A stretch of 64,000 nt of DNA from Enterobacteriaceae endosymbiont of Donacia bicoloricornis (GTDB lineage Bacteria > Pseudomonadota > Gammaproteobacteria > Enterobacterales > Enterobacteriaceae). A program made the position numbers and the translations under genes. Position 1 is the first letter of the stretch; each line of letters opens with the position of its first letter. A model generated the notes under the pieces. The model was not told the origin of the DNA, did no database searches, and was given only the letters and a program-made list of their open reading frames with translations. Below, one piece after another: positions 12,969 through 23,332 of this stretch. Where the stretch lies: assembly GCF_012567955.1 (NCBI RefSeq), contig NZ_CP046186.1, positions 119,327 to 183,326 on the forward strand, written 5' to 3'.

Positions 12969-13895
12969 ATGAGTCATATACCGGTTTTATTAAAAGAATC
13001 TATTAATAGTTTAAAAATTAAAAGTAATGGAATATATATAGATGCTACTTATGGTTGTGGGGGGCATACAAAGTTAATTTTATCTAAATTAGGAAATTAT
13101 GGACGAATTTATGCAGTAGATTGTGACATAAAAACAATTTTAAAACATAAAATTATAGATGATAGAATCATCTATCTTAATGATAATTTTTCAAATTTAA
13201 AATCTATTTTAAATACTAAAATAGGTAAAATAGATGGAATATTATTTGATTTAGGAATTTCTTCATTTCAATTAAATAATTCCCAAAGAGGTTTTTCTTA
13301 TATGTCTAATGGACCATTAGATATGCGTATAAATCAAAGAACAAAAGAAACAGCTTTTAATTTATTAAAAAATATAAATGAAAAAAAATTATCTGAAATA
13401 TTAAAAAAGTATGGTGAAGAAAAATATCATAAAAAAATAGCATATTATATCAAAAAGTATATTATACATAAAAAATTAAATAATACTCAAGATTTATCTA
13501 ATTTAATATGTTCTATTAATAAAAATAATAAATTTAAACATCCAGCAAAAAGATCTTTTCAAGCAATAAGAATTTTTTTAAATAAAGAGACAAAAGAATT
13601 AAAAAAAGCTTTAAAAAACTCATTAAAATTATTAAAAAAAGGAGGTATTTTATCAATTATTAGTTTTCATTCTATAGAAGATAGAATTGTTAAGTATTTT
13701 ATAAAAAAACATAGTATTTTATATAAAAAAAGTATTTATCATAAATTACCTCTAACTGAAATAGAAATAAATAATTTTTATAAAAAAGAGAAAAAACAAT
13801 TAAAAATTATTAATAGAATTTTTCCTAGTAAAAAAGAAATTTTTAAAAATCCCAGATCAAGAAGTGCAACATTACGTATTGCAGAAAAAATCTAA
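12969..13895 (+). CDS. rsmH: 16S rRNA (cytosine-1402-N4)-methyltransferase RsmH
   Basis: Methylates N4 of C1402 in the ribosomal P site, using SAM. It has 308 residues (E. coli 313). The N-terminal SHIPVLLKES, the SAM-binding DATYGCGGHTKLIL (around residue 25-40) and the ILFDLGISSFQL motif are characteristic, and the C-terminal half contains SFHSIEDRIVK. It is the first gene of the dcw cluster, as in E. coli apart from mraZ. The next two E. coli genes, ftsL and ftsI, are absent: only 55 bases separate its stop from murE. Confidence 0.96.
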   Translation: MSHIPVLLKESINSLKIKSNGIYIDATYGCGGHTKLILSKLGNYGRIYAVDCDIKTILKHKIIDDRIIYLNDNFSNLKSILNTKIGKIDGILFDLGISSFQLNNSQRGFSYMSNGPLDMRINQRTKETAFNLLKNINEKKLSEILKKYGEEKYHKKIAYYIKKYIIHKKLNNTQDLSNLICSINKNNKFKHPAKRSFQAIRIFLNKETKELKKALKNSLKLLKKGGILSIISFHSIEDRIVKYFIKKHSILYKKSIYHKLPLTEIEINNFYKKEKKQLKIINRIFPSKKEIFKNPRSRSATLRIAEKI

Positions 13896-13950
13896 AAAAA
13901 TAACTTATTCTTTTATTTTCAAAAATTTTTTAAATTAAGGATTAAAAGCA

Positions 13951-15453
13951 TTGACATCTTCTTTATTAAGTTTACAAAAACTATTAAATAAATATATAAA
14001 AAATAATCTGATTAAAAATATTCTAATAAACAGAATAGTTTTAGATAGTAGAAAAATTAAAGGGAAAAATTGTCTCTTTGTAGCATTGAAAGGACATAAA
14101 AATAACGGTAGAAATTTTATTAAAGATGCTATATTAAATGGTGCTATTGCTATATTAGCATATTCAGATAACAAAATATCTTCTTCTAGAATTATTTTTA
14201 AAAATAAAATACCTATTATTTATTTATTTAATTTAAATAAATATATTTCATATTTTGCAGGATTATTATATGATCATCCAAGTAAAAAAATACCTGTTAT
14301 AGGAATTACTGGAACTAATGGGAAAACAAGCATAACTCATTTTCTAATGCAATGGATTAAATTATTAGGAGGTAATCCAGCTGTTTTAAGTACTATTGGT
14401 AATGGTTTTAGTAATAAATTAACTCAAACTAAAAATACAACAGATTCTGCAATAAAAATACAATCTACATTAAAAAATTTTGTAAAAAAAAAAGCAAATA
14501 TTATAATAATGGAAATTTCTTCTCATGGATTAAAACAATATAGAGTATATGATATATTTTTTACTATTGGGATCTTTACAAATTTAACTAGAGATCACTT
14601 AGATTATCATCATAATATGAATAATTATGAATTATCCAAATGGAGTTTTTTTTCTACTCATAAGGTAAAAAAAAAAATTATAAATATTGATGATAATATT
14701 GGATTTAAATGGTTTAAAAAATTATCTGATGTAATCACAGTTACTACTAAAAAAAAACTATATAAATCTAATATATTTATTTATATAAAAAAAATAACTT
14801 ATTTATCTGATCAAACAATTATCTTATTTAATTCTAGTTGGGGTAATGGCAAAATAAAAATAAATTTAATAGGTAAATTTAATGTTATAAATATTATTTT
14901 AAGTATGGCTGCTTTATTAAGTTTAAATTATCCTTTACAAAAATTGTTAAAAACAGCATCTAAAATAAAACCTGTTAAAGGACGTATGGAAAAAATTTTT
15001 TTTAAAAAAAAATATTCTAATATAATAATTGATTATGCTCATAGTCCTGATTCATTAAAAAATATTTTATTAACTATAAGATTAATTACTTATGGTAAAA
15101 TATGGTGTATTTTTGGTTGTGGAGGTGAAAGAGATATAGGGAAAAGAAAAATAATGGGATATATAGCTACTAAATATGCTGAAAATGTCATTTTAACTAC
15201 TGATAATCCTAGAACAGAAAATATAAATAATATAATTAAAGATATAAAAAAAGGATGTAATATATCAAGTAATATATATATTATTATTGATAGAATTAAA
15301 GCAATTTCTTATGCAATATATAATGCTTCCAAAAAAGATACAATTTTAGTAGCAGGTAAAGGTCATGAAAATTATCAAATTATTGGTAATAAGATTTTAA
15401 ATTATTCAGATTTTCATACTATCCAAAATATACTAAAAAATAAATATGAATAA
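13951..15453 (+). CDS. murE: UDP-MurNAc-L-Ala-D-Glu:meso-DAP ligase MurE (TTG start)
   Basis: Adds meso-diaminopimelate to the peptidoglycan precursor. It has 500 residues (E. coli 495). The ATP-binding GITGTNGKTS, the NTTDSA substrate segment, EISSHGL and the DAP-site segment DNPRTEN (E. coli DNPR) are visible, so DAP specificity is expected. The start is TTG at 13951. It is preceded nine bases upstream by AAGGA (about 13937-13941), there is no in-frame ATG in the next tens of codons, and the N-terminus from here aligns in length with the family. The last eight bases overlap the start of murF, indicating translational coupling. Confidence 0.96.
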   Translation: MTSSLLSLQKLLNKYIKNNLIKNILINRIVLDSRKIKGKNCLFVALKGHKNNGRNFIKDAILNGAIAILAYSDNKISSSRIIFKNKIPIIYLFNLNKYISYFAGLLYDHPSKKIPVIGITGTNGKTSITHFLMQWIKLLGGNPAVLSTIGNGFSNKLTQTKNTTDSAIKIQSTLKNFVKKKANIIIMEISSHGLKQYRVYDIFFTIGIFTNLTRDHLDYHHNMNNYELSKWSFFSTHKVKKKIINIDDNIGFKWFKKLSDVITVTTKKKLYKSNIFIYIKKITYLSDQTIILFNSSWGNGKIKINLIGKFNVINIILSMAALLSLNYPLQKLLKTASKIKPVKGRMEKIFFKKKYSNIIIDYAHSPDSLKNILLTIRLITYGKIWCIFGCGGERDIGKRKIMGYIATKYAENVILTTDNPRTENINNIIKDIKKGCNISSNIYIIIDRIKAISYAIYNASKKDTILVAGKGHENYQIIGNKILNYSDFHTIQNILKNKYE

Positions 15454-16819
15454 ATTAATTAGTTTAAAAAAATTATCAAAAATAGTTAATGGAGTATTAA
15501 TTGGTAATAATATTAAAATATTGAATTTTACTATAAATAGTAAAAAAATTAAAAAAAATTGTATTTTTATTGCTATTCATGGCAAAAAATATGACGGTCA
15601 TTCTTTTATTACAGAAGCTATTCAAAATGGAGCATTAGCTATATTAGTAAATAAATTTTTTGATATTAATATTTCTCAAATTATAGTATCTGATACTATT
15701 TTAGCATTAGGTCAATTAGGTTTATGGAAAAGAACACAATTTAATAATCCTGTAATAGGAATCACAGGATCATCAGGTAAAACTTCAGTAAAAGAAATGA
15801 CAATATCTATTTTAAAGAAAAAATATAAAATTATTTTTACTAAAAAAAATATGAATAATCATATTGGTATTCCTTTAACGTTATTAAATATGACAAATAA
15901 ACATCAGTGTGCAGTAATTGAAATAGGAGGAAATCAAATTAATGATATTTCTTATTCTACAAGTTTAGTTAAACCTAATATTGCAATAATTAATAATATA
16001 TCAGAAGCACATTTAGAAGGATTCAAATCATTAAAAAATATTATTAAATGTAAAATTAGTATTTTTAATTATTTAACAAACAAAGGAACTGCTATTTTTA
16101 ATTATGATGATATTAATCAAAAAAAAATTTTAAAACATTTAACAAATAATTATAATATTTTAACTTTTTCTTTATATAATAAAAAAACTAATTTTTTTAC
16201 AAAAAATATAAAAATTTTCTCTCATAAAATTATATTTACTTTAATTTCTCCTATTGGAGAAATATTAATTAAATTATTTTTAATAGGAGGAGGAATTCAC
16301 AATATTAATAATGCATTAGCATCTGCTGCATTATCTTTTTCTATAGGATGTTCGTTAAAAGAAATTGCTAATGGATTAAAATATTTTAGACCTGTTCCCG
16401 GAAGAATGTTTCCAATTATTATTGATAACAATAAATTAATTATTAATGATACATATAATGCAAATCCTAATTCTGTAATTATAGCAATTAATATTCTTCA
16501 AAATTTTAAAAGTACTAAAATTTTAATTATTGGAGATATGTTAGAACTAGGAATGTATACAATATACTTTCATAAAAAAATTAAAAATTTAATTTTACAA
16601 ACTAATATAGATTATATTTTTAGTTTTGGAAAATATAGTAAATATATTACTGAAAATAATATAAATGCAAAACATTTTATAAATAAAACAAAATTAATAA
16701 ACAAATTATTTTTAATAATAAAAAAATTAAAAAATTATACAATTTTATTTAAAGGATCACGTAATAATAAAATGGAAATATTAATTAATATTTTATTGGA
16801 GAAATTAAAATGTTATTAA
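15446..16819 (+). CDS. murF: UDP-MurNAc-tripeptide:D-Ala-D-Ala ligase MurF
   Basis: Adds the D-Ala-D-Ala dipeptide, made by the Ddl encoded six kb downstream, to finish the cytoplasmic UDP-MurNAc-pentapeptide. It has 457 residues (E. coli 452). The Mur ligase P-loop GITGSSGKTS (around residues 108-117), the N-terminal domain with the AIHGKKYDGHSF segment and the late NDTYNANPNS motif are present. The gene overlaps murE by eight bases and mraY by ten, so the three are one transcription and translation unit. I see no damage. Confidence 0.96.
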   Translation: MNKLISLKKLSKIVNGVLIGNNIKILNFTINSKKIKKNCIFIAIHGKKYDGHSFITEAIQNGALAILVNKFFDINISQIIVSDTILALGQLGLWKRTQFNNPVIGITGSSGKTSVKEMTISILKKKYKIIFTKKNMNNHIGIPLTLLNMTNKHQCAVIEIGGNQINDISYSTSLVKPNIAIINNISEAHLEGFKSLKNIIKCKISIFNYLTNKGTAIFNYDDINQKKILKHLTNNYNILTFSLYNKKTNFFTKNIKIFSHKIIFTLISPIGEILIKLFLIGGGIHNINNALASAALSFSIGCSLKEIANGLKYFRPVPGRMFPIIIDNNKLIINDTYNANPNSVIIAINILQNFKSTKILIIGDMLELGMYTIYFHKKIKNLILQTNIDYIFSFGKYSKYITENNINAKHFINKTKLINKLFLIIKKLKNYTILFKGSRNNKMEILINILLEKLKCY

Positions 16820-17895
16820 TATTATTTAAATATCTACAATTTTTTTTAAAAAATTTAGATTTATTTTCAATAAATTTTAAAATTCGTTTTATAATGGTTT
16901 TTTTTATATCTTTTATAATTACTTTTTTTTTAAGTCCATTTTTTATTAATTATTTTAATAAAAAAAAAATTTCTCAAATTATTCGAAAAAATGGACCTAT
17001 TACACATTTTACTAAAAACAAAACACCTACCATGGGTGGAATAATATTATTATTAGCAATTATATTATCTGTTATTTTTTGTTCAGATTTAACAAATAAA
17101 TATATTTTTTATTCATTACTTATAATGATACTATATTCAGTAGTTGGATTTATAGATGATTTTTACAAAATAATTTTAAATAATTCTATAGGATTATCTA
17201 TTTTTAAAAAATTTTTTTTCCAATCAATATGTACTATTGCAGTAGTATCATTTATTTATCTAAATAATACAGAAAAATTATATATACAATTTAGTATACC
17301 TTTTATAAATAAAGTAATTAAATATAATTTGAATTATATTTTATATTTAATTATTTCTTATTTTATAATTGTAGGAATTAGTAATTCTGTAAATTTAACT
17401 GATGGATTAGACGGTTTAGTAATAATGCCTATTATTTTTATTTCTTTAGGATTAGCTATATTATGTTATTTTTCAGGAGATATATATCTTTCTAAATATT
17501 TTAATTTTATTTATATAAAAAATGCAAAAGAATTAATAATTATATGTTTAGCTATTGTTGGGTCTGGATTAGGATTCTTATGGTATAATACTTATCCTGC
17601 CAAAATTTTTATGGGAGATGTAGGATCTTTATCATTAGGTTGTATTATATCTATAATAGCAATTTTAATAAGACAAGAATTTTTATTTCTTATAATGTGT
17701 GGAGTATTTATACTAGAATCAATTTCTGTAATAATTCAAGTAATTAAATTTAAATACAACAAAAAACGTTTTTTTCTAATGGCTCCTTTACATCATCATT
17801 ATGAGTTAAAAGGGATTACAGAACCTTGTATTATTATTAGATTTTGGATTATTTCATTAATATTAGTGTTATTTTCTTTAATTATAATAATATAA
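16810..17895 (+). CDS. mraY: Phospho-MurNAc-pentapeptide translocase MraY
   Basis: Inner-membrane enzyme that moves phospho-MurNAc-pentapeptide onto undecaprenyl phosphate to give lipid I. It has 361 residues (E. coli 360) with about ten hydrophobic helices. Family motifs are kept: TPTMGG near residue 75, the acidic GFIDDFYK, NLTDGLDGL, the magnesium-site segment FMGDVGSLSLG, and the late APLHHHYE. It overlaps murF by ten bases. The gap to the murD start that I choose is 11 bases. Confidence 0.97.
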   Translation: MLLILFKYLQFFLKNLDLFSINFKIRFIMVFFISFIITFFLSPFFINYFNKKKISQIIRKNGPITHFTKNKTPTMGGIILLLAIILSVIFCSDLTNKYIFYSLLIMILYSVVGFIDDFYKIILNNSIGLSIFKKFFFQSICTIAVVSFIYLNNTEKLYIQFSIPFINKVIKYNLNYILYLIISYFIIVGISNSVNLTDGLDGLVIMPIIFISLGLAILCYFSGDIYLSKYFNFIYIKNAKELIIICLAIVGSGLGFLWYNTYPAKIFMGDVGSLSLGCIISIIAILIRQEFLFLIMCGVFILESISVIIQVIKFKYNKKRFFLMAPLHHHYELKGITEPCIIIRFWIISLILVLFSLIIII

Positions 17896-17906
17896 AAAAT
17901 TTAAAA

Positions 17907-19223
17907 ATGAATAAAAAAATACTTATTATTGGATTAGGATTAACAGGTATATCATGTTTAAATTTTCTTTTAAAGAAAAATATTATACCTTCTGTTATGG
18001 ATACACGTAATTATCCGAAATTTATAAAAAAAATACCATCTTATGTTCCATGTCATTTAGGTTACTTAAAAAAAGACTGGATATTAAATTCACAATTAAT
18101 AATTTTAAGTCCTGGTATATCAATATTTAATAATCTTTTATTAGAAGCAAAAAAAAAAGGTATTGAAATAATAGGAGATATAGAATTATTCGCTCGTTAT
18201 AATAAAACTCCTGTAATAGCCATTACGGGGACAAATGGGAAAAGTACTGTCACTAACATGATAGGAAAAATTATGAAAAAAAATAATTTTAATATCAGTG
18301 TTGGTGGTAATATAGGTTACCCTGTTTTAGATTTATTATCTTTTACAAGAGATTTTTATATTTTAGAAATATCTAGTTTTCAATTAGAAACAATAAAAAA
18401 ATTAAATATTTATATTGCTATAATTTTAAACATTTCACAAGACCATATGGATCGATATCCGTTAGGTATGGAACAATATCGTAATTTTAAATTACGTATT
18501 TATAAATATGCTTCTATTTGCATATATAATGCAGATAATATTTTATGCTATCCTAAATATTTTGACCAAAAAAAAAAATATATTACTTTTGGAGAATTTT
18601 CTGGTAAATATACATTATGTTATTTTAAAAAAAATATTTATTTACAAATCAATAATAAAAAAATTTTAAATTTTAATAAAACAAAATTAATTGGTATCCA
18701 TAATTATTTAAATGCTCTAGCAGTATTAGCAGTAACAGATGTATTAAAAATTCCTAAAAAAATTTCTTTACAAGAAATAAGTAATTATTTAAATATGGAC
18801 CATATATTACAAATAATTCATATAGAAAATGGAGTTACTTGGATCAATGATTCAAAATCTACAAATATTAGTAGTACTAAAGCAGCATTAAAATATTTAT
18901 ATAAAAAAAAAAGAATTTGGTTATTATTAGGGGGATATGATAAAAATTGCGAATTATATTTATTAAAAAAATATTTACAAAAAAGAAATAATATTAATGT
19001 TTATTGTTTTGGAATATCAAGTAAAAAAATATTATCTTTTTATCCTAAAGCAAAAATAGTAAAAACAATATATCAAGGAATAGAACAAATTATTAAATTA
19101 GTTAAAGCTGGAGATGTTGTATTATTATCACCAGCTTGTTCTAGTATTGACCAATTTAAAAATTTTAAACATCGTGGTAAAGAATTTATAAGATTAGTTA
19201 AAAAATTTCATAATTCTAAATAA
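17907..19223 (+). CDS. murD: UDP-MurNAc-L-Ala:D-Glu ligase MurD
   Basis: Adds D-glutamate to UDP-MurNAc-L-Ala. A longer open frame begins at 17844 inside mraY, but the family N-terminus (here KKILIIGLGLTGISCL) begins at the ATG at 17907. That start gives 438 residues, exactly the E. coli length, so I place it there. The P-loop AITGTNGKSTVT, the EISSFQL segment and a C-terminal LLLGGYDKN and LSPACSSIDQF are intact. In E. coli ftsW follows; here only 68 bases separate the stop from murG, so ftsW has been lost. Confidence 0.95.
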   Translation: MNKKILIIGLGLTGISCLNFLLKKNIIPSVMDTRNYPKFIKKIPSYVPCHLGYLKKDWILNSQLIILSPGISIFNNLLLEAKKKGIEIIGDIELFARYNKTPVIAITGTNGKSTVTNMIGKIMKKNNFNISVGGNIGYPVLDLLSFTRDFYILEISSFQLETIKKLNIYIAIILNISQDHMDRYPLGMEQYRNFKLRIYKYASICIYNADNILCYPKYFDQKKKYITFGEFSGKYTLCYFKKNIYLQINNKKILNFNKTKLIGIHNYLNALAVLAVTDVLKIPKKISLQEISNYLNMDHILQIIHIENGVTWINDSKSTNISSTKAALKYLYKKKRIWLLLGGYDKNCELYLLKKYLQKRNNINVYCFGISSKKILSFYPKAKIVKTIYQGIEQIIKLVKAGDVVLLSPACSSIDQFKNFKHRGKEFIRLVKKFHNSK

Positions 19224-19291
19224 TATATTTTTATAAAAAAAATAATATATAATTTTATACATTTTTTATTTATATTAAAAATATTTTAAAC

Positions 19292-20356
19292 ATGAAAAAA
19301 AAAAAAAAAATTATTATAGTAGCTGGAGGTACAGGAGGTCATATTAATCCAGCTTTAAATATAGCATATAAATTAATAAAAAAAGGATGGGAAGTACGTT
19401 GGTTAGGAACTCCATCTAGAATGGAAGCTGAAATTATTCCTAAAAAAAATATACGTATTTATTTAATAAAATTTTCTAGATTTAAAAATAAAAATATTTT
19501 TTCAATAATTATTACTATACTTAAATTAATTATATCAACTTATAAAACAATTTTAATTTATAAAAAATATAAACCACATTTAGTTTTAACAATGGGAAGT
19601 TATATTTCTGGCCCTAGTGGTTTAGCTGCCTGGTTATGTAATATTCCATTAATAATACATGAACAAAACAGTATTTCTGGAATAACAAATAAAATTTTAT
19701 CTAAAATAGCAACAATAAAAATGCAAGCATATCCTAATACATTACATAATGCAGTATTAGTAGGAAATCCTATAAGTAATAAAATTATAAAATTATCTTT
19801 ATATAAAAGATCTTTTATAAAAATTCATAAACCTATCCATTTATTAATTACAGGAGGGAGTCAAGGAGCAGATTTAATAAATAAAATAGGAATAAAATTA
19901 TCAAAAATTCTAAAAAATAAAATATCTATTTTACATCAAGTTGGAAAAGGTAATTTTAAAAAAATATATTATGAATATAAAAAAAACAAAATTTATAATT
20001 TAACTATAAAAGAACATATAGAAAATATAGATAAAGCATATAAATGGGCTGATATTATATTATGTCGATCAGGAGCTATGACTGTAGCTGAAATTACTAC
20101 AATAGGGTTACCTGCTATTTTTATTCCTTTTGAACATAAAGATAAACAACAATATTTTAATGCAATAAAGTTAAAAAAAATAGGAATTGCCAAAATATAT
20201 GAAAAACATAATTTAGATATTAATAAAATTGCTAATATTATATTAACTTTAAATAAAAAAAAAATAGCATATATAGCAAAAAGATCATATAATTTAGTAA
20301 GAAAAAATTCTATAGAATTAATTTATCAAGAATTAAAAAAAATAAAAATTAATTAA
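19292..20356 (+). CDS. murG: Lipid II synthase MurG (GlcNAc transferase)
   Basis: Peripheral inner-membrane glycosyltransferase that adds GlcNAc to lipid I to give lipid II. It has 354 residues (E. coli 355). The glycine-rich AGGTGGHINPAL (around residue 10) that contacts lipid I, the HEQNSISG segment, and the UDP-GlcNAc site GGSQGA and RSGAMTVAE are intact. Immediately after the ATG there is a run of 16 A bases (19295-19310) encoding five Lys plus the first base of Ile. This is a slippery place for polymerase or replication slippage. The frame is correct in this sequence. Confidence 0.96.
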   Translation: MKKKKKIIIVAGGTGGHINPALNIAYKLIKKGWEVRWLGTPSRMEAEIIPKKNIRIYLIKFSRFKNKNIFSIIITILKLIISTYKTILIYKKYKPHLVLTMGSYISGPSGLAAWLCNIPLIIHEQNSISGITNKILSKIATIKMQAYPNTLHNAVLVGNPISNKIIKLSLYKRSFIKIHKPIHLLITGGSQGADLINKIGIKLSKILKNKISILHQVGKGNFKKIYYEYKKNKIYNLTIKEHIENIDKAYKWADIILCRSGAMTVAEITTIGLPAIFIPFEHKDKQQYFNAIKLKKIGIAKIYEKHNLDINKIANIILTLNKKKIAYIAKRSYNLVRKNSIELIYQELKKIKIN

Positions 20357-20382
20357 TTTAAAATAAAATAAAATTTATAAAT

Positions 20383-21855
20383 ATGTTTAATAAAAAAAAT
20401 TTAAATAAAATACCAAAAATGAATAATATTCATTATATATATTTAATTGGTATTGGCGGTTCTGGAATGGGAGGTATTGCAACAATTCTTGTTAAACAAG
20501 GTTATAAAATTAGTGGATCAGATATATCATCTAATTTTATTATAAAAAAATTAAGTTTATTAAATATAAAAATAAACTTACAACATGATGCTAAAAATAT
20601 TACAAATAATATAGATCTTATTATTATATCTAGTGCTATTAAAAATAATAATCCAGAATTAATTGCAGCTAAAAAATTAAATATTGCTATCATTAGTAGA
20701 GGGGAAATGTTAGCAGAATTAATGAGATTTTTTTATGGAATAACTATTACAGGAAGTCATGGTAAAACTACAACTACTGCAATAGTATACAAAATATTTA
20801 AATTATTTATGTTAGATCCAACATTTGTTAATGGTGGTTTTTTAAAATTCTCTAAAGAAAATGCTTATTTAGGTTCAAGTAAATATTTTATTGCAGAAGC
20901 AGATGAAAGTGATAAATCATTTTTATATTTGAATCCAATAATAAATATTATTACAAATATTGAAAGTGAACATTTAGATTATTATCAAAATAATATTGAA
21001 ATTTTAAAAAAAACATTTTTAAAATTTTTAAAAAAAATTCCATTTTATGGATGTATTATTATTTGTATAGATAATATTCATAATTATAATTTAATAAAAC
21101 AAAATAAAAATTTTTTAAAACAAAATATTATTACTTATGGCTTCCATAAGGAAGCTGATTTACAATTATATAATTATCAACAAAATGGATATAAAAGTAG
21201 ATTTTATTTATTAGAAAAAAAAAAAAAAATATCTTTAGAAATAAATTTAAATATTCCTGGATATCATAATGCTTTAAATTCAATTGCCGCATTTGCTACA
21301 GCGTCTTATGTTGGTTTAGACCCTATAATGATTATAGAATTTTTAAAAAAATTTAAAGGTATTGAAAGAAGATTTGATATTTTAGGACATATATTACCTT
21401 ATCAAAAAATAAAATATAAAAAAAATATAATTATTATTGATGATTATGGTCATCATCCTACTGAAATAAATATAACTATAAATATAGCTCGAAAAATATG
21501 GCCAAATAGAAAATTAGTAATGGTTTTTCAGCCTCATCGTTATTCTAGAACTAAAAACTTATTAAACAAATTTGTACAAATATTATCTAAAGTTGATAAA
21601 TTATTTATTTTAAATACTTATTCTGCAGGAGAAAATATTATTAAAAAAGCAAATAGTGAATTCTTAACTAAGAAAATAAGAGAATTAGGTATAATAAATC
21701 CTAAATTTATTAATTTAACAGATTATTATGATATTGCAAATAATATATATTTAAAATTAAAAGGAAATGAAATATTAATTTTTCAAGGAGCGGGTAATAT
21801 AAATAATATATCATCATTATTAATAAGTAATAATTTTAAAAATTTAAAAAATTAA
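20383..21855 (+). CDS. murC: UDP-N-acetylmuramate:L-alanine ligase MurC
   Basis: Adds L-Ala to UDP-MurNAc, the first step of stem-peptide building. It has 490 residues (E. coli 491). The N-terminal UDP-binding GIGGSGMGGIA, the ATP P-loop GSHGKTTTTA, EADESDKSFL, the DDYGHHPTEI segment and FQPHRYSRT are all intact. A run of 15 A bases lies within the gene (about 21215-21229, in the LEKKKK stretch) but the frame is kept. In E. coli it is flanked by murG and ddlB, as here. Confidence 0.96.
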   Translation: MFNKKNLNKIPKMNNIHYIYLIGIGGSGMGGIATILVKQGYKISGSDISSNFIIKKLSLLNIKINLQHDAKNITNNIDLIIISSAIKNNNPELIAAKKLNIAIISRGEMLAELMRFFYGITITGSHGKTTTTAIVYKIFKLFMLDPTFVNGGFLKFSKENAYLGSSKYFIAEADESDKSFLYLNPIINIITNIESEHLDYYQNNIEILKKTFLKFLKKIPFYGCIIICIDNIHNYNLIKQNKNFLKQNIITYGFHKEADLQLYNYQQNGYKSRFYLLEKKKKISLEINLNIPGYHNALNSIAAFATASYVGLDPIMIIEFLKKFKGIERRFDILGHILPYQKIKYKKNIIIIDDYGHHPTEINITINIARKIWPNRKLVMVFQPHRYSRTKNLLNKFVQILSKVDKLFILNTYSAGENIIKKANSEFLTKKIRELGIINPKFINLTDYYDIANNIYLKLKGNEILIFQGAGNINNISSLLISNNFKNLKN

Positions 21856-21894
21856 TTTAATAATAATAATTATAGTAAGTTTTAATTAAAAATT

Positions 21895-22818
21895 ATGTCA
21901 AAAAAAATAGCTGTTTTATTTGGAGGTAATTCTCCAGAAAGAGAAATTTCTTTAAAATCTGGTAAAACAATTTTAAAAGCTTTAATAAAATCGGGAATTA
22001 ATGCTATTGGAATAGATCCAATAAATTTCCCATTATTATATCTAAAAAAATATGGGTTTAAAAAAATTTTTATATCTCTACATGGGAAAGGAGGTGAAGA
22101 TGGAACTATCCAAGGGATATTAGATTATCTTAAAATTCCTTATACTGGAAGTAATTTATTATCTTCAGCAATTACTATGAATAAATATCTTACAAAAATT
22201 ATATGGAATGAGTATGGATTACCAGTTATTTATCCTCATTATTTATTAAATAAAAAAGATTTTATAAAATCAAATTATCTAAAAATAGAAAAAAAAATCT
22301 TAAAATTAAATTTACCTGTTTTTATTAAACCTAATTGTAATGGTTCTAGTTTAGGTAATTCAAAAATTGATCATGTAGATGATCTATTTAATGCGATAGA
22401 AAAATCATTTATATATAGTGATGATATTTTAATTGAAAAATATGTAAAAGGAGAAGAATATACAGTAGGAATTTTAAATAAAAAAATTTTACCTCCTATA
22501 AAAATAGAATATCCTAATGATTTTTATAACTATCAAGCTAAATATTATTTAAATACAACTAAATACTTTTGCCCTAGTGGATTAAAGAAAAATAAAATAA
22601 AAGAATTAGAAAATATTATTTTGCGTGCTTGGAATGCAGTAAAATGTCAAACATGGGGAAGAATAGATGTAATTTTAGATAAAAATAAAGAATTTAAACT
22701 TTTAGAGATAAATACCATTCCTGGAATGACGTCAAATAGTTTATATCCATTAGCAGCAAAAAAAATAGGATTATCTTTTTATGATTTAGTTCTAAAAATT
22801 TTAAATTTAACTAAATAA
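21895..22818 (+). CDS. ddlB: D-alanine-D-alanine ligase
   Basis: ATP-grasp enzyme that makes the D-Ala-D-Ala dipeptide for MurF. It has 307 residues (E. coli DdlB 306). The N-terminal VLFGGNSPEREISLKSG, the SLHGKGGEDG loop, the ATP-grasp KPNCNGSSLG and the C-terminal LEINTIPGMT with the magnesium ligands are intact. Dcw context identifies it as ddlB rather than ddlA. After it, E. coli has ftsQ, ftsA, ftsZ and lpxC. None is here: 37 bases later comes the convergent DciA-like gene. Confidence 0.96.
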   Translation: MSKKIAVLFGGNSPEREISLKSGKTILKALIKSGINAIGIDPINFPLLYLKKYGFKKIFISLHGKGGEDGTIQGILDYLKIPYTGSNLLSSAITMNKYLTKIIWNEYGLPVIYPHYLLNKKDFIKSNYLKIEKKILKLNLPVFIKPNCNGSSLGNSKIDHVDDLFNAIEKSFIYSDDILIEKYVKGEEYTVGILNKKILPPIKIEYPNDFYNYQAKYYLNTTKYFCPSGLKKNKIKELENIILRAWNAVKCQTWGRIDVILDKNKEFKLLEINTIPGMTSNSLYPLAAKKIGLSFYDLVLKILNLTK

Positions 22819-22855
22819 AATGTTTTTTTAAAAATTTTTATTTAAAAAATTATTA

Positions 22856-23332
22856 TTATTTAATTTTGATAAATTTTTTAATTTTATTTTTTAAAGTTTT
22901 AGAACTTTTTTTTGCAACATTTAATAATAATTTAGTACTATATTTACTTAATGAATTTTTTTTCATAATACGTTTATTATGAATATTATAAGACATAAAA
23001 TTTTTTTTAAAAAAAAGAGGATTGATTTTAATCTCTATCTTTCTTAAAGAAGGGATAATATTTTTTTTTAAAAAATATAAAATATTAGATTTTTCTGACA
23101 TAAATCTAATCATGGAACTAGCATTATATGTTTCTATTATTAAAAGATAATTTTTAAAATTTTTTACATTATATAAGTTATGTAACTCTATAGGTAAATT
23201 TTTTTTTATAAACTTATCAATTTTTATCAAAAGATTAGTATGTATATATATATTATATAATATTTTTGTATATGATGAATATTTTTTTTTTTGAAAAATT
23301 TCATTAATTAGTAGTAATTTATTATTACGCAT
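22856..23332 (-). CDS. DUF721/DciA-like protein (putative helicase loader)
   Basis: A 158-residue basic protein that I assign only tentatively. Residues about 30-106 resemble the DUF721 (DciA) fold: an LP..L...Y.V-like turn near residue 46, a strand-rich LLIIETYNASSMIRFM block, and SLRKIEIKINP, which matches the family pattern of a beta-strand ending in R(K)I.V.V.P. In many gammaproteobacteria a DUF721 gene lies divergently just before secA, between lpxC and secA, exactly this position. DciA interacts with the replicative helicase DnaB. It is not SecM: orientation is opposite to secA and no FxxxxWIxxxxGIRAGP arrest motif is present. The C-terminus is Lys-rich and unremarkable. Confidence 0.55.
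   Translation of the reverse strand: MRNNKLLLINEIFQKKKYSSYTKILYNIYIHTNLLIKIDKFIKKNLPIELHNLYNVKNFKNYLLIIETYNASSMIRFMSEKSNILYFLKKNIIPSLRKIEIKINPLFFKKNFMSYNIHNKRIMKKNSLSKYSTKLLLNVAKKSSKTLKNKIKKFIKIK

Follow-up and report, generated by a model that had tools for sequence, protein, structure and literature searches.

Retention of minC and minD without FtsZ is the unusual feature of the reed-beetle symbionts; their fts-free mur cluster is not unique in itself. The 24 reed-beetle symbiont genomes analyzed, including that of Donacia bicoloricornis, comprised 13 encoding MinCDE, three encoding MinCD only and eight without MinC and MinD, and FtsZ was identified in none of them. The retained min genes are under purifying selection. 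MinC is best known as an inhibitor of FtsZ, and the best-known job of the Min system is to place the FtsZ ring. That a lineage lacking FtsZ keeps this inhibitor intact, and under purifying selection, therefore suggests that MinC has another target or role. We consider it somewhat probable that the divisome was lost before these symbionts diversified, that RodA, PBP2 and MreB build the wall, and that Min has an FtsZ-independent job.

The DNA analyzed (the window, 64,000 nucleotides) comes from the symbiont of the reed beetle D. bicoloricornis (Donaciinae). Its genome of 463,713 bases consists of two contigs, a chromosome (458,627) and a plasmid (5,086), with a completeness figure of 97.2%. The 24 genomes of the genus set have two contigs each and were published as full sequences (PMC7289800); the symbionts of D. 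versicolorea and D. semicuprea are outside this set. A control set of 14 genomes was used for the FtsZ, FtsA and FtsK searches, and 17 other FtsZ-less relatives in the family were compared, with three further FtsZ-less family members left out.

The reduced dcw cluster was arranged as rsmH-murE-murF-mraY-murD-murG-murC-ddlB (Table 1), which keeps the enterobacterial order, with secA downstream and the interleaved fts genes missing. A sequence-only reading had described it as the E. coli order minus the fts genes; order, strand and coordinates were rechecked and agreed. Seven of the eight proteins scored above the NCBIfam cut-off of their own best-scoring model, and MurF above that of its second model only. 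The murD gene most likely starts at the ATG at 17904 rather than at the ORF opening at 17844. Beyond the genes named earlier, mraZ and secM are also missing from the cluster.

Table 1. Features of the reduced dcw cluster and its gaps (window coordinates).
Feature	Position	Strand	Evidence
rsmH (mraW), 16S rRNA methyltransferase, first gene of cluster	12969..13895	+	TIGR00006 323 bits, cut-off 154
55-base gap; ftsL and ftsI site in E. coli	13896..13950		Sequence; E. coli order; no tblastn trace
murE, DAP-adding ligase, TTG start	13951..15453	+	NF001123 603 bits, cut-off 586
murF	15446..16819	+	TIGR01143 400 bits, above cut-off 289; stricter PRK10773 465 bits, below cut-off 551
mraY	16810..17895	+	TIGR00445 360 bits, cut-off 192; 44% identity to E. 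coli MraY
murD	17904..19223	+	TIGR01087 381 bits, cut-off 212
68-base gap; ftsW site in E. coli	19224..19291		Sequence; genome's only SEDS gene elsewhere
murG	19292..20356	+	TIGR01133 308 bits, cut-off 250
murC	20383..21855	+	TIGR01082 479 bits, cut-off 335
ddlB, D-Ala-D-Ala ligase	21895..22818	+	NF002378 357 bits, cut-off 243
37-base gap; E. coli has ftsQ, ftsA, ftsZ and lpxC after ddlB	22819..22855		Sequence
158-aa protein, not a dcw or division gene	22856..23332	-	Homologues against PF05258 DciA; omega 0.38

The gaps at the three fts sites, read directly from the sequence, have the lengths given before, and a search with E. coli proteins bore out that they hold no visible fts remnant. E. 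coli FtsL, FtsI, FtsW, FtsQ, FtsA, FtsZ, LpxC, MraZ and SecM gave no tblastn match (E<=0.01) when searched against the dcw stretch of each of the 24 genomes; in four of these, from Plateumaris, the stretch stops inside ddlB, so that the search covered the first two sites only. By our gene calls, the same sites span 6 to 215 bases across the genus, the 215-base extreme reflecting a murG start that was called late in D. crassipes; the third site, after ddlB, was measured in 20 of the 24 genomes. Six fts genes are gone from three sites as had been claimed, but their losses need not have been separate and may represent perhaps only three deletions. The 158-aa protein encoded after the third gap is probably DciA, of the helicase-loader family. 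PF05258 was matched by eight of 12 homologues (best E 2.8e-4) and not by the window copy itself. We rejected the idea that this ORF holds a decayed FtsQ or some other relic, since the homologues match DciA, if weakly, and the NCBIfam names were weak and implausible.

A search detected no FtsZ in either contig of the D. bicoloricornis symbiont, plasmid included, which rules out relocation of ftsZ. None of the 24 reed-beetle symbiont genomes matched, while 13 of the 14 controls did. FtsZ was found in 223 of 246 genomes of the family sample, some of them of only about 400 kb. Against this figure, its absence from 24 two-contig full genomes refutes for practical purposes an assembly or detection artefact in which ftsZ is present but missed. 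FtsA was likewise absent from all 24 (controls 8/14). FtsK gave no match above the cut-off in any of the 24, with eight of the 14 controls above it. FtsK candidates in six of the 24 genomes were rejected because they reached at most 21.6 bits (cut-off 24) over 20-40 profile positions only; the weak match in the D. bicoloricornis symbiont lies within an era-like ORF of the window (era named by eye). This genome encodes one transpeptidase (PBP2) and one SEDS polymerase (RodA), adjoining as a mrdA-rodA pair, and hence neither FtsI nor FtsW, also elsewhere in the genome. Intact ftsZ, ftsI or ftsW genes on the chromosome or a plasmid, on which the sequence-only reading had let its claim hang, were thus looked for and not found, and a cell without FtsZ is borne out at the level of genes. 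We infer that ftsZ was lost once, in an ancestor predating the diversification of the reed beetles; this ancestor would also have shed FtsA, FtsI, FtsW and the remaining fts genes of the dcw cluster.

MreB, MreC and MreD are present in the D. bicoloricornis symbiont, and mrdA, rodA and mreBCD are intact and above the Pfam cut-offs. The genes behind the earlier guess of division with MreB, RodA and PBP2 are therefore all there, and as this is the set detected, the only machinery found is that of elongation. A single SEDS gene was present in each of seven genus members tested. A second MreB-family match (C1:147660) is the DnaK ORF of the window (DnaK named by eye). The mreD gene was looked for behind mreC in three relatives and not found there in those of P. 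sericea and N. nigricornis, suggesting that the Rod complex is eroding too. Judged from the genes, lipid II synthesis would have been kept, and RodA-PBP2, as the one SEDS-class B pair, would carry out all wall polymerisation under the guidance of MreB, MreC and MreD.

The fts-free mur cluster is not peculiar to the D. bicoloricornis symbiont, as it was also present in all 10 FtsZ-less mraY-bearing relatives examined (0.2-1 Mb; G005, G006, G015, G021, G030, G077, G132, G157, G166, G198), with no FtsI, FtsW, FtsQ or FtsZ found in the cluster. A general link between the loss of ftsZ and wall loss in endosymbionts has been suggested (PMC4164004). The presence of mraY in 11 of the 17 other FtsZ-less relatives argues against it.

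The minCDE genes of the D. bicoloricornis symbiont are located about 11 kb outside the window. MinD scored 349 bits with TIGR01968 (cut-off 213), and the MinC N and C domains and MinE were above the Pfam cut-offs (PF05209, PF03775 and PF03776). Across the genus, minC and minD were detected in 16 of 24 genomes. Each of the 16 MinC C domains is accompanied by an intact MinD, and the aligned MinDs all (16/16) display the Walker A motif GKGGVGKT and a similar C-terminal membrane helix; the eight genomes without MinC also lack MinD. Intact minE was found in 13 of the 16; the symbionts of D. proxima and D. piscatrix carry visibly decayed copies, and that of N. nigricornis has lost the MinC N domain. 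In the genus tree, Plateumaris is sister to all other reed-beetle symbionts. At least three minCD losses (Plateumaris; D. tomentosa; D. clavipes and D. dentata) and two minE losses were mapped on it, indicating that Min is dispensable in some lineages.

Omega was calculated from six species pairs sharing no branches (five for minE). The values were 0.10 for MinD, 0.12 for the MinC C domain, 0.25 for MinE, 0.33 for the FtsZ-binding MinC N domain (P=8e-8 against 1) and 0.62 for the MinC linker (P=0.06), compared with 0.20-0.34 for the mur genes, rsmH and ddlB in the same pair set; single pairs were less clean: in three of nine, murD had a value no higher than that of MinD, and in one, MinE rose to 0.99. 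Purifying selection in six non-overlapping pairs does not agree with Min genes that are functionless relics in slow decay, nor does the visible decay of copies that are relaxed, such as the two minE genes. Also against such decay are the 75-100 million years over which reed beetles have been diversifying (PMC7289800) and the differential expression of minC in one of the symbionts (PMC12508126). The repeated losses of minCD and minE and the missing MinC N domain would fit decay, a reading that is already disfavoured and that we think improbable.

As the best-known partner of Min is gone, the system, kept in most of the lineage, would be maintained for another task, and we put forward a hypothesis for its target and for the mode of constriction. 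Most likely, MinD and MinC would form a pattern on the membrane, which MinE would reset in the genomes that have it and which would position or keep out MreB-RodA-PBP2; the pattern might also, or instead, help to separate the chromosomes, so that elongation-type wall synthesis could divide the cell. The strongest constraint lies on MinD and the MinC C domain, which are either both present (16 genomes) or both missing (eight). Together they could, tentatively, form a membrane pattern or a MinC-MinD cofilament that positions MreB-RodA-PBP2 or shapes the membrane, as a cue for division by the elongasome only.

Min might instead be kept only for chromosome segregation, patterning of membrane proteins or mRNA localisation through MinD (with MinE), MinC being a passenger and cytokinesis unrelated to Min. 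This alternative, which overlaps partly with the explanation preferred here, appears rather unlikely. MinD is indeed the most constrained protein, and FtsK, as described above, gave no match above the cut-off. Segregation defects were reported for E. coli Min deletions (PMC3792344; PMC6803595), and MinDE in vitro may act on membrane proteins beyond MinC and FtsZ (PMC6158289). However, the constraint on the MinC C domain is near that on MinD, the N domain is on par with the mur genes, and MinE, needed for oscillation, is gone in three of the 16 genomes in which MinD and the MinC C domain stay.

It is unlikely, and a little more so, that the symbiont does not divide actively and that the host fragments or pinches its filaments (filaments in larvae, round cells in adults). 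Cells are described as elongated or irregular in larvae and round in adults (PMC12508126), and no divisome gene was detected among those searched (FtsZ, FtsA, FtsI, FtsW and FtsK), but this would leave unexplained why the mur cluster, RodA, PBP2, MreBCD and Min are kept under selection.

A beetle-encoded ftsZ of bacterial origin, its product imported so that MinC has its normal target, is very improbable. By E. coli biology, MinCD should stop FtsZ from dividing the cell when MinE is missing, and the MinE-less lineages have MinCD unopposed. On the other side, bacterial genes with putative roles in wall metabolism are expressed around the symbiont in aphids (PMC9116674), and Lys9 and Phe42, implicated in the inhibition of FtsZ by E. 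coli MinC (PMC11938149), are retained by alignment in MinC of the D. bicoloricornis symbiont. E. coli MinC Gly10, likewise implicated in FtsZ inhibition, is replaced by Gln or Lys in reed-beetle symbionts, but one FtsZ-bearing relative also differs there, with Ser, so the position is of little diagnostic value.

The reed-beetle symbionts, all FtsZ-less and with MinCDE, MinCD or neither MinC nor MinD, offer a natural experiment. In larvae of Macroplea mutica, symbiont minC was up-regulated, and a recent study saw in this a possible block to cell division (PMC12508126). The M. mutica symbiont (G264) has no FtsZ; since the known route for such a block is missing, the reading of the up-regulation changes. 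Among open-licence PMC papers, we found none joining Donacia and ftsZ, and on Min in FtsZ-less symbionts only two surfaced, a review on the shape of cyanobacteria and another on division.

The D. bicoloricornis symbiont resembles E. coli in having all three Min proteins with their Pfam or NCBIfam domains, and differs in that the FtsZ target is missing, as are the MinC N domain in one reed-beetle symbiont genome and MinE in three. Buchnera aphidicola likewise lives in insects, belongs to the same order and has minCDE. However, the Buchnera groups tabulated in PMC10591338 (Table 2) keep FtsZ and FtsA and have no mreB, the reverse of the reed-beetle symbiont. The Buchnera of Stegophylla is described as missing all division genes, but virtually all wall genes too (PMC9116674). 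Wolbachia supergroup J is without ftsZ and keeps mreB, murA and murB (PMC10591338), but is an alphaproteobacterium and has no min genes. The other FtsZ-less genomes of the family share the fts-free mur cluster and differ in lacking minD (0/17), in rarely having an unbroken SEDS gene (3/17) and in rarely having ddlB (two of the 10 examined). Chlamydia has RodA and PBP2, as does the reed-beetle symbiont. It also lacks FtsZ and keeps mur genes and MreB (PMC10591338). The FtsZ-less mode of Chlamydia is MreB-directed polarized budding. Chlamydia differs in keeping FtsI, FtsW, FtsQ, FtsL and FtsB and is listed without Min genes (PMC10591338 Table 2). It also keeps FtsK (PMC11975371), whereas the reed-beetle symbiont combines MreB, RodA and PBP2 with the absence of FtsI and FtsW, without an FtsK match, and keeps minCDE.

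The eight genes rsmH, murE, murF, mraY, murD, murG, murC and ddlB follow one another on the plus strand of the window, and all of their proteins were named by NCBIfam. Seven of the eight scored above the cut-off of the top-scoring model, while MurF was below that of PRK10773 and above that of a second model, TIGR01143 (400 bits vs. 289). Compared with the E. coli K-12 order, mraZ, ftsL, ftsI, ftsW, ftsQ, ftsA, ftsZ, lpxC and secM were absent, and the three gaps at the emptied sites measured 55, 68 and 37 bases. The sequence-only reading was therefore right on gene content, order, gaps and the missing fts genes and lpxC; mraZ and secM are further absences. The 158-aa protein encoded between ddlB and secA evolves fast, and the matches among its homologues point to DciA as a possible helicase loader of the symbiont.

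Location of the features discussed (C1, chromosome of the D. bicoloricornis symbiont; L numbers, fetched loci)
Feature	Location	Strand	Remark
158-aa protein	window 22856-23332	-	between ddlB and secA; 8/12 homologues match DciA PF05258, best E 2.8e-4
murB	C1:5401-6450		intact
mreB, mreC, mreD	C1:7114-9497		all above Pfam cut-offs
minC, minD, minE	C1:106094-107994		
mrdA-rodA	C1:290298-293313 (L163)		sole transpeptidase and sole SEDS gene
mreC region, P. sericea symbiont	L145:7333-8361		mreD not found behind it
mreC region, N. nigricornis symbiont	L147:7218-8129		mreD not found behind it
FtsA-like stretch, G077	L199:13364-14077		between murC and secA; 20% identical to E. coli FtsA

No FtsZ was found by a tubulin family (PF00091) search in the D. 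bicoloricornis symbiont genome (97.2% complete, with two contigs totalling 463,713 bases, which Reis et al., 2020, PMC7289800, list in their Table 1 as a chromosome of 458,627 bp and a plasmid of 5,086 bp), nor in any of the 24 reed-beetle symbionts analyzed (24 of the 26 published, those of D. versicolorea and D. semicuprea being left out). The same search detected FtsZ in 223 of the 246 genomes of the family sample; among the 23 FtsZ-less genomes, the 20 listed were all small, up to 1 Mb. The FtsA SHS2 domain was likewise found in 0/24 genus members (controls 8/14), and FtsK/SpoIIIE gave only sub-threshold matches, in six of the 24 (controls over the cut-off 8/14). Searches with PF00905 and PF01098 identified one transpeptidase and one SEDS protein in the D. 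bicoloricornis symbiont, encoded by the adjoining mrdA-rodA pair; therefore, neither FtsI nor FtsW is present. Since class A PBPs also carry the PF00905 domain, none would be expected. All seven genus members tested had exactly one SEDS gene. Thus, lipid II synthesis and the elongation complex are what is left among the genes searched. The FtsZ-less life proposed from the sequence, together with the loss of FtsA, FtsI and FtsW, was borne out genome-wide, and the MreB, RodA and PBP2 genes guessed at are present. The mreD gene was detected in the D. bicoloricornis and D. clavipes symbionts; its absence behind mreC in those of P. sericea and N. nigricornis suggests that the Rod complex is also eroding in the genus.

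This fts-free mur run was present in all 24 reed-beetle symbionts, although in four Plateumaris the fetched stretch ended inside ddlB. Outside the genus, mraY was found in 11 of the 17 FtsZ-less family genomes tested, and 10 of these 11 regions were compared by tblastn using E. coli proteins. Matches to rsmH, murE, mraY, murD, murG and murC were obtained in 10/10, and FtsI, FtsW, FtsQ and FtsZ had no match in any of these cluster regions; murF was unmatched in three and ddlB in eight. In the FtsZ-bearing control Stammera, FtsA and FtsZ were both detected by the same test. Loss of fts genes with retention of mur genes is a repeated outcome, and the cluster of the window, taken alone, is one more case of a recurring pattern. 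On its own, dcw loss is ordinary among small-genome symbionts. A link between ftsZ loss and wall loss in endosymbionts has been suggested (PMC4164004); however, these recurring clusters go against it.

In two FtsZ-less relatives (G015 and G030; loci L202 and L204), the emptied fts sites were 1.1-2.5 kb long without a tblastn match, so these losses look recent. The FtsA-like stretch of the FtsZ-less, ~200-kb G077 is possibly an ftsA remnant, or FtsA kept without FtsZ. Six FtsZ-less relatives (G005, G015, G021, G030, G156 and G166) had mraY and no SEDS match and may therefore make lipid II without RodA or FtsW. The rodA gene was split or stop-bearing in the FtsZ-less, mraY-bearing G157 (L174) and G006 (L175), which belong to one genus; its member G245 has FtsZ.

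Unlike dcw loss, a conserved Min system in an FtsZ-less lineage is out of the ordinary. The MinC of the D. bicoloricornis symbiont was above both domain cut-offs (PF05209, 45.9 bits; PF03775, 100.1 bits), as were MinE for PF03776 and MinD for TIGR01968. The MinC C domain was identified in 16 of the 24 reed-beetle symbionts, with an intact minD at all 16 loci and an intact minE in 13. Two sister symbionts, those of D. piscatrix and D. proxima (L097, L103), had intact minC and minD, but just after minD their minE was reduced to a remnant interrupted by stops or breaks of the frame. In the symbiont of Neohaemonia nigricornis, minE was not found and the MinC ORF started downstream of the N domain. 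All eight genomes without minC lacked minD too, and no min remnant was found near the operon-flanking rnt in seven of them, those with rnt inside the fetched stretch. The minD gene was found in 0/17 other FtsZ-less family members and in both FtsZ-bearing controls. This pattern, with MinE and the MinC N domain dispensable and MinD retained or lost jointly with the C domain, is consistent with a MinCD core, the single N domain loss (n=1) being little evidence.

Seven concatenated proteins were used to build a FastTree phylogeny rooted on E. coli, in which Plateumaris was sister to all other reed-beetle symbionts (support 1.0). Because FtsZ is missing in 24/24, its loss before their common ancestor is the simplest reading, independent later losses being the alternative. 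Reed-beetle diversification spans 75-100 million years, and genome erosion was placed in the ancestor (Reis et al., PMC7289800). If no regain is assumed, three losses of Min are needed, one in Plateumaris, one in D. tomentosa and one shared by D. clavipes and D. dentata, plus two additional losses of minE. In an FtsZ-dividing cell such as E. coli, loss of MinE with MinC and MinD kept would be harmful; in reed-beetle symbionts it is tolerated.

Codon comparisons (Nei-Gojobori) were pooled over six species pairs sharing no tree branches (five for minE). Pooled omega, which is rough at 20% GC, was 0.10 for MinD and 0.12 for the MinC C domain, both generally conserved proteins, and 0.25 for MinE. 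For the N domain of MinC it was 0.325, different from 1 at P=8e-8 in a test assuming independent sites, and for the MinC linker, which serves as internal control, it was 0.62 (P=0.06). With rsmH, the mur genes and ddlB at 0.20-0.34, MinD and the C domain are more constrained than these enzymes on pooled counts, and the N domain, which binds FtsZ in other bacteria (PMC11938149), is constrained like them. Nine partly overlapping single pairs gave 0.05-0.15 for MinD and 0.05-0.33 for the C domain, with noise: murD was as low as MinD in three, the N domain was below the C domain in one, and MinE reached 0.99 in one.

Given that FtsZ and FtsA are absent, that FtsK has no match above the cut-off and that there is one wall polymerase pair, any new wall at the division site would have to be made by RodA-PBP2. 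Min may pattern this machinery or, alternatively, the chromosome or membrane. Such patterning is thinkable in view of three published properties: MinDE may act on other membrane proteins in vitro (PMC6158289), MinDE oscillations deformed liposomes and MinD alone did not (PMC6823393), and MinC and MinD, when purified, copolymerise into straight filaments on membranes, polymerisation being reported as unnecessary for the Z-ring block (PMC6771821). Since MinD alone did not deform liposomes, a membrane-shaping role would need MinE.

No paper pairing Donacia with ftsZ was found in the open-licence PMC literature. Reis et al. (PMC7289800) mention peptidoglycan genes, and ftsZ and minC are both absent from their main text. 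A 2025 study (PMC12508126), whose main text does not mention FtsZ, attributes minCDE and mreBCD to Donaciinae symbionts and reads larval minC up-regulation in the Macroplea mutica symbiont as possible inhibition of division. That symbiont lacked FtsZ (PF00091). In contrast to the study's statement, minC and minD were both missing in 8/24 Donaciinae symbionts. This natural genome series makes it testable what else MinC does. Among the bacteria tabulated in a review of obligate intracellular bacteria (PMC10591338), Buchnera is the only one with min genes, and it has FtsZ.
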